From: Halarchaeum grantii
Lineage (GTDB): Archaea > Halobacteriota > Halobacteria > Halobacteriales > Halobacteriaceae
Direction: 5' to 3'
Length of the DNA: 64,000 nt
NCBI RefSeq assembly: GCF_014647455.2
Contig: NZ_BMPF01000001.1
Coordinates: 682,001 to 746,000, forward strand
Made by a program: the position numbers and the translations under genes. The notes beneath the pieces are model-generated. The model was not told the origin of the DNA. It ran no database searches and was given only the letters and a program-made list of their open reading frames with translations. The stretch's first letter is position 1. Each line of letters opens with the position of its first letter. Shown here piece by piece: positions 37,212 to 41,483 of this stretch.

Positions 37212-37389
37212 GGGGAGTCGAAACCGAGCGCGGGGGACGCCCCACTCACCAACGTATGCCGGTGTGCGCCACGCCGCGCGGATGTGCGGGGGAGGCGCTC
37301 GCTGGGGACGCACCGCTCGTCGTCTCGGTTCTCACCCGGTCACCCGCGAAACGATTCACCGGTGGCTCTCCGGTGTGAGATCGTAGAAG

Positions 37390-37464
37390 TGGGTTGGGGC
37401 GGATTTGAACCGCCGGCCTCCTCCATGTCAAGGAGGTGTCATAGCCTGACTAGACCACCAACCC
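37390..37464 (-). tRNA. tRNA-Val (GAC)
   Basis: A 75-base tRNA on the minus strand. The acceptor GGGTTGG pairs with CCAACCC. The anticodon stem CCTCC/GGAGG encloses TTGACAT, giving GAC. The T arm is GGCGG-TTCAAAT-CCGCC. The discriminator is A and CCA is not encoded. Confidence 0.96.
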
Positions 37465-37506
37465 TCGGTGGCGCGCTCCTCCGAACGCATCTCTTCGTAG
37501 TCCGGG

Positions 37507-37515
37507 GGTATAGTT
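37507..37515 (-). promoter_or_regulatory. TATA element of tRNA-Val
   Basis: AACTATACC on the minus strand, preceded by CGAAACCTTC, lies about 43-51 bases from the tRNA 5' end, so a short 5' leader would be trimmed by RNase P. Confidence 0.55.
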
Positions 37516-37575
37516 GAAGGTTTCGAACCGGGTGTTTCCCCGTGAACTATTCCCACTCGGGGAGCCCGCGACAGG

Positions 37576-37621
37576 CTTATAGTGGTGTACAGACTTGTAC
37601 ATCATAAGCCGAATTCGTACA
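37576..37621 (+). promoter_or_regulatory. trp promoter: TATA element plus three phased TGTACA boxes
   Basis: CTTATAGT (37576-37583) is the TATA element. It is followed by TGTACA at 37586-37591, TGTACA at 37596-37601 and a one-mismatch CGTACA at 37616-37621. Starts are 10 and 20 bases apart, so all three lie on the same face of the helix, covering the expected start of transcription near 37605. TGTACA is the TRP-box consensus bound by the TrpY repressor in Methanothermobacter. Repression by a tryptophan-sensing protein is a reasonable inference. Confidence 0.65.
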
Positions 37622-37634
37622 CCGGTGCCCCACC

Positions 37635-38642
37635 ATGCAGGACTACATCGAACGCGTCACCGAGGGAGAGGACTTGACGGTCGCCGAAGCACGCGAGGCC
37701 GCCACCGCCGTCTTCGAGAGCGCGACGGAGGCACAGATCGGCGCGCTGCTCGCCGCGCTCCGCGCGAAGGGCGAGACCGAGGCCGAGATCGCGGGCTTCG
37801 CGCAGGGGATGCGGGAGGCCGCCATCACCATCGACCCCGACCGGAGCCCGCTCGTCGACACCTGCGGGACGGGCGGCGACGACTACAACACGATCAACGT
37901 CTCCACGACGTCCGCCATCGTCGTCGCCGCCGCCGACGTCCCCGTCGCCAAGCACGGCAACTACTCCGTCTCCTCCTCCTCGGGCAGCTCAGACGTCCTC
38001 GAAGAGGTCGGCGTCGACCTCGACACCACGCCCGAGGCCGTCGAGTCCCACATCGAGGAGTTCGGCATCGGGTACATGCACGCCCCCGCGTTCCACCCCG
38101 CGATGAAGGCCGTCATCGGCCCGCGCCGCGAGCTCGGGATGCGCACCATCTTCAACGTCCTCGGGCCGCTCACGAACCCGGCGGGCGCGGACGCACAGGT
38201 CCTCGGCGTCTACGACCCCGACCTCGTCCCCGTCATCGCGGAGGCGCTCACGGAGATGCCCGCCGGGGACGCCCTCGTCGTGCACGGGAGCGGCCTCGAC
38301 GAGATCGCGGTCCACGGCGAGACGGTCGTCGCGGAAGTCCACGGCGACGATGTCGAGGAGTACACGCTCACCCCCGACGACCTCGGTCTGGAGCGCTCGC
38401 CCATCGACGCCATCGCGGGCGGCACGCCCGAGGCGAACGCCGCCGACTTACGCGGCATCGTCGAGGGGGAGGTGACCGGCGCGAAGCGCGACGTCATCCT
38501 CGCGAACGCGGGCGCGGCCGTCTACGTCGCCGGCGAGGCCGAGTCGCTCGAAGCCGGCGTCGAGGCCGCCCGCGACGCCATCGACTCCGGCGCGGCCGCC
38601 GCGAAGCTCGCCGACCTCTGCGGCCCAGAAGGCGAGCGATGA
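37635..38642 (+). CDS. trpD: Anthranilate phosphoribosyltransferase
   Basis: A 335-residue type III-fold phosphoribosyltransferase joining anthranilate and PRPP. The PRPP-loop motif TCGTGGDDYNTINVST lies near residues 75-90, and KHGNYSVSSSSGSSDVLE near 106-123 forms the anthranilate side. RELGMRTIFNVLGPLTNPA is also conserved. It is the first gene of trpDFEG and overlaps trpF by four bases. Expression is probably controlled by the boxes upstream. Confidence 0.97.
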   Translation: MQDYIERVTEGEDLTVAEAREAATAVFESATEAQIGALLAALRAKGETEAEIAGFAQGMREAAITIDPDRSPLVDTCGTGGDDYNTINVSTTSAIVVAAADVPVAKHGNYSVSSSSGSSDVLEEVGVDLDTTPEAVESHIEEFGIGYMHAPAFHPAMKAVIGPRRELGMRTIFNVLGPLTNPAGADAQVLGVYDPDLVPVIAEALTEMPAGDALVVHGSGLDEIAVHGETVVAEVHGDDVEEYTLTPDDLGLERSPIDAIAGGTPEANAADLRGIVEGEVTGAKRDVILANAGAAVYVAGEAESLEAGVEAARDAIDSGAAAAKLADLCGPEGER

Positions 38643-39310
38643 CGGCGACGCGAACGAAGGTCTGCGGCCTGACGAGCGCCGAGGACGTCGCCGCCGCCGT
38701 CGAGGCGGGCGCTGACGCCCTCGGGTTCATCGTGGACGTGCCGGTGGAGACGCCGCGCGAGGTGTCGGTCGAGCGCGCGGCCGACCTCGTCGCGGCCGCG
38801 CCGCCGTTCGTCTCGACGGTGCTCGTGACGATGGCCGACCCGGAGGCGGTGCCGACGCTCCACGACGCCGTGGGGACGGACGCCGTCCAACTGCACGGCG
38901 ACCTCCCCGCAGAGCGAGTGGCGAGCCTCGCGAGCGTGCTGGACGCGCGCGTGGTGAAAACCGTGGACGCGGACGACCCCGAGGCGGCGCGCGACTACGA
39001 CGGCGTCGCGGACGCCCTCCTCGTGGACTCGACGGACGCGTCCGGTGCGGGCGGCACGGGTCGGACCCACGACTGGACGGTGACGCGCGACCTCGCCGCC
39101 GAGCTCGACGCCCCGGTCGTCCTCGCGGGCGGCCTCACCCCCGCGAACGTCGCGGAGGCGGTGCGGACGGTGGAGCCGTACGCGGTGGACGTCGCGTCCG
39201 GCGTCGAGTCCGAGGGCGGCGTGAAGGACCACGACGCCGTGCGGTCGTTCGTCGCGAACGCGACGCGCGCGTTCGACGGCGCCGACGACGAACCGGAGGT
39301 GTCGCCCTGA
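38639..39310 (+). CDS. trpF: Phosphoribosylanthranilate isomerase
   Basis: A 223-residue TIM barrel. The catalytic Cys lies in KVCGLTSAED (residues 7-16), the acid in DALLVDS, and the phosphate-binding end is LAGGLTPANV and DVASGVES. It catalyses the Amadori rearrangement of PRA to CdRP. The ATG at 38639 overlaps the trpD stop (ATGA), and its own stop shares a base with the trpE start (TGATG). Confidence 0.96.
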   Translation: MTATRTKVCGLTSAEDVAAAVEAGADALGFIVDVPVETPREVSVERAADLVAAAPPFVSTVLVTMADPEAVPTLHDAVGTDAVQLHGDLPAERVASLASVLDARVVKTVDADDPEAARDYDGVADALLVDSTDASGAGGTGRTHDWTVTRDLAAELDAPVVLAGGLTPANVAEAVRTVEPYAVDVASGVESEGGVKDHDAVRSFVANATRAFDGADDEPEVSP

Positions 39311-40905
39311 TGGGGTTCGACGTGACGCGCGAGGCGTTCGTCGAGCGCGCGGCCGGCGACGGCCCCGGCGTCGTCTACGCCGAAGCCACGCTGGACGCGG
39401 ACGTCTCGCCGCTCGCGGCGTACGCGGCGCTCGCGGACGGCGACTACGCCTTCCTCCTCGAGTCCGCCGAGAAGACGGCGGCCTCCGACCCCGGCGGGGC
39501 GTTCCGACCCCGCGACGCGGCGGGCGAGCGCCACGCGCGCTACTCCTTCGTCGGCTACGACCCGGATGCGGTGGTGCGCGCGACGCCCGAGGGAGCGAGC
39601 GTGGAGCGCCTCTCGGACACCCGCGCCGCCCGCTCGGTGGCGCCGGGCGGCGGCGACGTCCTCGACCAGCTGCGCGGGTCGCTCCCGTCGGTCGAACGGC
39701 GGGGCTTCCCGGAGAGCGAGCGCCAGCTCCTCGACGGCGGGCTCGTGGGGTTCGTCGCCTACGACGCCGTCTACGACCTCTGGCTCGAGGAGGTCGGCGT
39801 CGAGCGCCCGGAGACCGCCCTGCCGGACGCGGAGTTCCTCCTGAACACGGCCGTCCTGCGCTTCGACCGCGCGACGGGGACGCTCTCGCTCGTCTGCACG
39901 CCCGTCGTCGACCCCGACGCGGACGACGCCGGCGCGGTCTACGACGACCTCGTCGCGGAGGCCGAGCGCGTCGAGGACGCACTCGCGGACGCGAGCGACC
40001 CCGACACCGGTGGCTTCGAGCGGACGGCGACACACGCCGGCCCGCAGGACGAATACGAGGACGCGGTCGAGCGCGCGAAGGACGCGGTGCTCGACGGCGA
40101 GATCTATCAGGGCGTCATCTCGCGCACGCGCGAACTCGAGGGCGACCTCGACCCGCTCGGGCTCTACGCGGCGCTGCGCGAGATCAACCCCTCGCCGTAC
40201 ATGTACGTCCTGAAGCACGACGAGCGGACGGTCGTCGGTGCGAGCCCGGAGACGCTCGTGAGCGTCCACGGCCGCGAAGTCCTCAACAACCCCATCGCGG
40301 GCACGTGCCCGCGGGGAACGAGCCCCGTGGAGGACCGCCGACTCGCCGGCGAGATGCTCGCGGATGAGAAGGAGCGCGCGGAGCACACGATGCTCGTCGA
40401 CCTCGCGCGCAACGACGTCCGCCGGGTGAGCGAGGCGGGGTCCGTCAGGGTCCCGGAGTTCATGCGCGTCCTCAAGTACAGCCACGTCCAGCACATCGAG
40501 TCGACTGTGACGGGCCGCCTGCGCGAGGAGATGGACGCCTTCGACGCGATTCGCGCGTCGTTCCCGGCGGGGACGCTCTCGGGCGCGCCAAAGGTGCGCG
40601 CGATGGAGCTCATCGACGAGCTCGAGCGCACACCGCGAGGGATCTACGGCGGCGGGGTGGGGTACGTCTCGTGGACGGGCGACGCGGACGTTGCGATCTG
40701 CATCCGCACCGCGACCGCCCATCACGGCGCGGGTGATGCGGGCGCGGACGTCGTTCGCGTCCGGGCGGGCGCGGGCGTCGTCGTGGACTCCGACCCGACG
40801 AGCGAGTACGAGGAGACGGAGAAGAAGATGGGCGGCGTCCTCGACGCGCTCGACGAGATCACGCGACCGGCCGATGCGGACGGAGACGCGGAGGTGGAGC
40901 GATGA
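39310..40905 (+). CDS. trpE: Anthranilate synthase component I
   Basis: A 531-residue chorismate-binding enzyme that makes anthranilate with TrpG. Conserved blocks are GEIYQGVISRTRELE, NPSPYMYVLKHDERTVVGASPE, IAGTCPRGTSPVED and FPAGTLSGAPKVRAMELIDE. The N-terminal region contains FLLESAEKT (about residues 50-58), the usual LLES motif of tryptophan feedback inhibition. It overlaps trpF and trpG. Confidence 0.97.
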   Translation: MGFDVTREAFVERAAGDGPGVVYAEATLDADVSPLAAYAALADGDYAFLLESAEKTAASDPGGAFRPRDAAGERHARYSFVGYDPDAVVRATPEGASVERLSDTRAARSVAPGGGDVLDQLRGSLPSVERRGFPESERQLLDGGLVGFVAYDAVYDLWLEEVGVERPETALPDAEFLLNTAVLRFDRATGTLSLVCTPVVDPDADDAGAVYDDLVAEAERVEDALADASDPDTGGFERTATHAGPQDEYEDAVERAKDAVLDGEIYQGVISRTRELEGDLDPLGLYAALREINPSPYMYVLKHDERTVVGASPETLVSVHGREVLNNPIAGTCPRGTSPVEDRRLAGEMLADEKERAEHTMLVDLARNDVRRVSEAGSVRVPEFMRVLKYSHVQHIESTVTGRLREEMDAFDAIRASFPAGTLSGAPKVRAMELIDELERTPRGIYGGGVGYVSWTGDADVAICIRTATAHHGAGDAGADVVRVRAGAGVVVDSDPTSEYEETEKKMGGVLDALDEITRPADADGDAEVER

Positions 40906-41483
40906 AGGTCGTCTTCGTCGACAACTTCGACTCGTTCACGTACAACCTCGTGGAGTACGTGAGCGAGCACCCGGGCGTGGAGACGGCGGTGCTGAAGAAC
41001 ACGGCGTCGGTCGCGGAGATCGAGGCGGAGGAGCCGGACGCGCTCGTCATCTCGCCCGGCCCCGGCCACCCGAAGAACGCGCGCGACGTCGGCGTCACGG
41101 CGGCCGTCCTCACGGGCCTCAGCCACGAGGTGCCGACGCTCGGCGTCTGTCTCGGGATGGAGGCGGCGGCCTACGAGTACGGCGGGGCGGTCGGGCACGC
41201 GCCCGAGCCCATCCACGGGAAGGCCTACCCGATCGAGCACGACGGCGCGGGCGTCTACCGCGGCCTCGAGCAGGGCTTCCAGGCGGGGCGCTATCACTCC
41301 CTCATCTGCACGACGATCCCGGACTGCTTCGAGGTCACGGCGACGACGGAGCACGACGGCGAGACGCTCCCGATGGGGATTCGCCACCGCGAGCATCCCA
41401 TCGAGTGCGTGCAGTTCCACCCGGAGAGCGTCCTCACCGGAGTCGGCCACGACGTCGTCTCGAACTTCCTCGAGACCGTCTAG
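40902..41483 (+). CDS. trpG: Anthranilate synthase component II (glutamine amidotransferase)
   Basis: A 193-residue class I glutaminase. It opens VVFVDNFDSFTYNLVEY and has the oxyanion loop ISPGPGHPKN. The catalytic Cys is in GVCLGMEAA, and His-Glu are in QFHPES. The usual CLGHQ is CLGME here, so the residue after the loop is not the common Gln. It releases ammonia for TrpE. Its start overlaps trpE (ATGA) and its stop overlaps a convergent gene at CTAG. Confidence 0.95.
   Translation: MKVVFVDNFDSFTYNLVEYVSEHPGVETAVLKNTASVAEIEAEEPDALVISPGPGHPKNARDVGVTAAVLTGLSHEVPTLGVCLGMEAAAYEYGGAVGHAPEPIHGKAYPIEHDGAGVYRGLEQGFQAGRYHSLICTTIPDCFEVTATTEHDGETLPMGIRHREHPIECVQFHPESVLTGVGHDVVSNFLETV

Follow-up and report, generated by a model that had tools for sequence, protein, structure and literature searches.

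In Halarchaeum grantii the promoter of the trpDFEG operon carries an array of TGTACA-type boxes spaced by whole helical turns, and arrays of the same kind stand in front of both trp operons in essentially all of the haloarchaea that we sampled. The repeated word, TGTACA, is the TRP-box consensus of the regulator TrpY. We are highly confident that the array is a tryptophan operator, and an ancient tryptophan operator is the best reading of the sequence comparisons described below. The protein that reads it is probably a TrpY-family member, an assignment that draws on protein and DNA sequence conservation and that we make with somewhat less assurance than the operator itself.

Phased boxes at the trpDFEG and trpC promoters of Halarchaeum grantii

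The window, by which we mean the whole 64-kb stretch of H. grantii DNA that was analysed, contains the trpDFEG operon together with its promoter region (Table 1). On re-reading the sequence, we found the two TGTACA copies and the CGTACA copy of the earlier note exactly where it had placed them, with spacings of 10 and 20 bp and lying between the TATA element and the start of trpD. Its identification of the downstream genes as trpDFEG agrees with curated models for trpD, trpE and trpG, trpF being recognised from its sequence. The distance from the TATA-like CTTATAG to box 1 is the same as that of the CTTAAG element in most other haloarchaeal trpD promoters.

Table 1. Features of the trpDFEG promoter and operon in the window, and loci of related tnaA promoters.
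Feature	Position or locus	Strand	Basis or remark
TATA-like CTTATAG, trpD promoter	37576-37582	+	sequence
Box 1, TGTACA (palindrome)	37586-37591		conserved position 0 of the trpD array
Box 2, TGTACA, +10 bp from box 1	37596-37601		conserved position +10 of the trpD array
Putative transcription start region, about 25 bp past TATA	37603-37608	+	inferred from usual archaeal TATA-to-start spacing
Box 3, CGTACA, +20 bp from box 2, presumed leader	37616-37621		GTACA conserved at +30
Degenerate fourth lattice position, TGCCCC	37626-37631		weak in H. grantii; TGTTCA or TGTCCA in many relatives
trpD, anthranilate phosphoribosyltransferase, first gene of operon	37635-38642	+	ATG at 37635; TIGR01245, 422 bits
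trpF, phosphoribosylanthranilate isomerase	38639-39310	+	ORF, identified by sequence only
trpE, anthranilate synthase component I	39310-40905	+	TIGR01820 above cut-off
trpG, anthranilate synthase component II	40902-41483	+	NF041322 above cut-off
tRNA-Val(gac), upstream neighbour bounding the intergenic region	37389-37464	-	
tnaA promoters with phased CGTACA/TGTACA boxes, genus g3	L326, L329, L332, L333, L349		

Chance occurrence of such boxes in H. grantii is conceivable in so far as TGTACA is a short palindrome, of which the window has four single copies besides boxes 1 and 2. The total of six copies in the window compares, however, with 1.41 expected, the exact pair TGTACA-N4-TGTACA did not arise once when the 170-bp intergenic region (37465-37634) was put through 20,000 dinucleotide shuffles, and the array is conserved across 116 genomes and 46 genera. 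This conservation refutes the chance reading, to which we attach virtually no probability. In the whole 3.02-Mb assembly the exact pair occurs a single time, at trpD.

A near match to the box pair lies directly 5' of trpC in the same genome (TrpC NCBIfam haloarchaeal model, 430.8 bits, cut-off 380), where the promoter reads TGTACA-gatg-AGTCCA-ttat-TGTACA-acg-ATG, with three boxes following each other in 10-bp steps up to the start codon. With arrays at trpD and at trpC, both trp promoters of this genome therefore carry the phased word. Other two-mismatch matches in the genome were rejected as operators, most of those fetched lying inside long open reading frames; trpC was the only recognisable tryptophan gene at which a fetched match was found, and a control pattern yielded as many two-mismatch near matches.

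The trpC site also bears on the possibility that these operons are controlled at the RNA level, by attenuation or a leader structure of which the repeated words are parts. Box 3 of trpD does fall within the presumed leader, and promoter-independent control of trpA has been suggested in H. volcanii (PMC13147458). We nevertheless consider RNA-level control exceedingly improbable, since the last trpC box lies a few bases 5' of the ATG and leaves hardly any room for a leader, tRNA is the only Rfam family detected in the region, and the boxes are DNA palindromes in phase with the helix.

Conservation of the array across haloarchaea

The earlier note had proposed that trp genes of other haloarchaea be searched for the same boxes. 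We located trpD and trpC in 116 haloarchaeal genomes from 46 genera, and every upstream region was read or searched by pattern. All 116 genomes have the array at trpD, a few of the copies being degenerate: 60 were recovered exactly by pattern and the other 56 were read directly, each of these containing a box pair at three mismatches or fewer. At trpC it is present in 115 of the 116, with 85 recovered by a three-box pattern and 30 of the remaining 31 by a pair at two mismatches or fewer. The sole exception, genome G021, has an array just past the 3' end of trpC (L348:3076-3101), where it possibly serves a rearranged trp gene. In the shuffled background, a pair at two mismatches or fewer turned up at a rate of about 1% for trpD-type regions and 0.3% for those of trpC type; none of the 30 haloarchaeal trpY promoters used as a control has one.

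Genome-wide searches gave a similar distribution. The exact form TGTAC-N5-TGTACA has 119 sites in the 116 genomes, 60 of them situated 52-62 bp before the trpD model start, and the three-box pattern with one mismatch has 92 sites, 85 at trpC and one at trpD. Several of the recurrent two-box sites elsewhere were discarded as coding (kinase-like, response regulator, hydrolase-like and tubulin-like open reading frames). In genome G109 (L179:1551-1566, L284:2651-2666) an exact TGTACA-N4-TGTACA comes directly behind a TATA-like TATAAAA, and the 150 bp that follow contain no obvious gene.

The consensus at trpD is CTTAAG-N4-TGTAC-N5-TGTACA-N14-CGTACATTGGTG, behind which a weak fourth box is often seen, and that at trpC is CGCAAGCCTTATGTACA-N4-nGTnCA-N4-TGTACA-nnAATGAAC. 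The fourth weak box of trpC, TGAACG, overlaps the start codon (L004:1530-1538 and other trpC starts), and conservation of the ATGAAC N-terminus may in part be an operator constraint. The first box adjoins the TATA element at trpD and overlaps it at trpC, and the array spans the presumed start in both cases; such a layout would be expected if a repressor acted by blocking the basal machinery.

The same closeness of box 1 to the TATA element, above all at trpC, could also mean that the boxes are mainly core-promoter sequence of highly expressed operons, with no specific regulator involved. This is very unlikely, because the array is largely limited to tryptophan genes and absent from the trpY and SNF-family control promoters, the boxes follow a 10-bp lattice to 40 bp beyond TATA, and the tnaA promoters of one genus have them upstream of TATA.

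A TrpY-family protein as candidate reader

A TrpY homologue, for which the earlier note had advised looking, is encoded in H. grantii and in every haloarchaeon searched. The H. grantii protein matches the TrpY_fam model NF053754 with 228.9 bits (cut-off 180) and has a weak Pfam ACT match at its C-terminus. All 116 haloarchaea have exactly one TrpY_fam gene, and scores above the cut-off were obtained in 193 of the 197 genomes examined in the phylum; members of the family combine a winged-helix-like N-terminus with a C-terminal ACT domain. Near the N-terminus, the haloarchaeal and methanogen proteins share DRRVVD(S/A)T with hardly any variation, a segment read here as a putative recognition helix; the ACT motif SIRQ is kept in most. 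The gene is unlinked to the trp operons (trpY at 585241 and trpC at 248546 of contig C2, trpD at 719647 of contig C1). The box array is missing from the trpY promoter of H. grantii, as it is from the 30 haloarchaeal controls, and weak degenerate pairs occur in 2 of 20 methanogen trpY promoters.

In clade f18, which has no TrpY above cut-off, the trpE-first operon is without the array and its upstream region is A+T-rich. The joint lack of protein and array points to TrpY as the reader, an observation that comes from one clade and is suggestive only. The trpE promoters of this clade (L275, L276; G132, G124) share a different repeated element around ATATGTCA, which is perhaps the operator of another regulator.

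The TrpY of M. thermautotrophicus represses trp by binding TRP boxes; in T. kodakarensis, trp is not under the control of the homologue, and the haloarchaeal branch was described in 2019 as one whose members "have not been examined" (PMC6737238). A genuine trp operator might be read by another regulator, for instance one of Lrp/AsnC type such as H. salinarum LrpA2. LrpA2 (OE2776F) is up 14.9-fold without aromatic amino acids, and a role in regulating the synthesis of these compounds has been proposed for it (PMC4162585); an Lrp-type regulator therefore stays the main rival. That some TrpY homologues leave trp unregulated is in line with this, and TrpY_fam is nearly universal in the phylum, so that its co-occurrence with the array is weakly informative. 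We regard a reader other than TrpY, of Lrp type for instance, as unlikely all the same, given the joint absence of TrpY and array from clade f18 and the conservation of the TrpY recognition segment between haloarchaea and array-bearing methanogens. The word of the array, moreover, matches the TRP box of TrpY.

The array in methanogens of the same phylum

In methanogens the array stands in front of the first trp gene of the operon, whether that is trpD, trpE or trpC, in most families though not in all. All 12 trpD-first loci have it (p 0.036 or better in shuffles), as do, within 270 bp, 8 of 10 trpE-first loci, a ninth having it farther upstream; trpC-first operons with the array were found in two genomes of family f17 and two of f11. 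None of 20 internal trpE genes is preceded by an array. Families f12, f13, f14 and f26 have TrpY_fam and lack the array at their first trp gene, and the presence of TrpY is therefore not predictive of the array. A TrpY homologue from family f13 (L304, genome G141) has a diverged recognition segment, DRKVVVSA, and the trpC-first operons of this family are among those without the array.

The earlier note had spoken of a shared or convergent operator. The first of these terms fits better, and the second is disfavoured because methanogens of the same phylum have the array at the first trp gene. Common descent followed by later losses accounts for the distribution better than convergence does.

Operator model and comparison with known systems

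In the model that we favour, TGTACA half-sites at whole-helical-turn spacing lie between TATA and the presumed start of trpDFEG and at the start of trpCBA. The TrpY-family protein, encoded by a single gene, would most likely bind as a dimer to adjacent boxes on the same face of the helix, and its ACT domain would take up tryptophan, the probable ligand. Loaded with tryptophan, the protein would occlude the region from TATA to the start and shut off both trpDFEG and trpCBA. In H. salinarum the two operons rise jointly without aromatic amino acids (PMC4162585). The trpCBA promoter of H. volcanii has been described as "not tightly regulated" (PMC13147458), and regulation is therefore possibly modest.

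Among known systems, the closest comparison is offered by trpEGCFBAD of M. thermautotrophicus, in which TGTACA boxes likewise lie over the trp promoter near TATA and the start. The candidate haloarchaeal regulator is of the same winged-helix/ACT family, as judged from the NF053754 match, and by analogy repression by tryptophan would be expected here as well. Unlike in M. thermautotrophicus, trpY of H. grantii is not next to a trp operon and shares no overlapping promoters with it, and the haloarchaeal trpY promoter is without the array, whereas M. thermautotrophicus trpY is autoregulated. Haloarchaea differ further in having the array at two separate operons, in a box spacing that keeps to one 10-bp lattice throughout the class, and in the inclusion of tnaA in one genus with boxes upstream of TATA. 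Since the word and the protein family are the same while trpY lies apart from the trp operons and has no array at its own promoter, the haloarchaeal system is best called a variant of the M. thermautotrophicus TrpY/TRP-box system.

Bacterial TrpR operators are likewise tryptophan-dependent operators within promoters, although TrpR belongs to a protein family unrelated to TrpY and recognises a different operator word. A further archaeal protein that controls transcription of trp and related operons is Tar (TK0271), the T. kodakarensis activator of aromatic amino acid operons, a different regulator from TrpY (PMC6737238).

Possible further targets

Tryptophanase (tnaA) promoters of genus g3, which belongs to the same family as H. 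grantii, have two to three boxes in 10-bp steps upstream of a TATA-like element in 5 of 7 genomes (Table 1); that of genome G035 reads CGTACA-N4-TGTACA-N4-CGTACA-N14-GGTTTATC. This geometry is opposite to that of the trp operons, and from the placement of the boxes it is possible that breakdown is activated by the same protein. In genus g23 the tnaA promoters (L307, L310, L311, L315) have a conserved CACCGATGYACA-N4-CGTCCACGA about 100 bp upstream, which resembles a degenerate box pair (shuffle p 0.000-0.014). The p.tna promoter of Haloferax volcanii is likewise a haloarchaeal tryptophan-responsive promoter, but it is induced by tryptophan, in contrast to the repression expected at the trp operons; the phased boxes described here are those of tnaA in genus g3.

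In two genomes of genus g11 (G115, L174:1566-1581; G084, L283:665-680) a close pair, TGTACAGACGTGTACA, stands directly 5' of the ATG of an SNF-family sodium symporter. The symporter may be regarded as a tentative candidate for a tryptophan transporter within the regulon of this genus. SNF-family transporters as general targets were set aside, as no close pair was seen among the promoters inspected and the array was confined to genus g11.

A single ancient TrpY-family regulator might run the whole tryptophan homeostat across Halobacteriota through one word in two geometries, with boxes between TATA and the start repressing synthesis (trpDFEG, trpCBA) and the g11 SNF transporter, and boxes upstream of TATA activating tnaA when tryptophan is plentiful. 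We put this forward as a tentative proposal and lean slightly against it in its full form. Such a regulator could underlie the widely used tryptophan-inducible p.tna promoter.

Significance

The operator is known for only a few archaeal regulators. For the unexamined haloarchaeal branch of TrpY, the phased boxes at both trp operons of essentially all haloarchaea are a concrete predicted target, one that is testable at once in genetically tractable haloarchaea, and with them the TRP-box idea reaches much of a second phylum. If functional, the tnaA sites would supply a candidate mechanism for the tryptophan induction of a promoter that is widely used in Haloferax.
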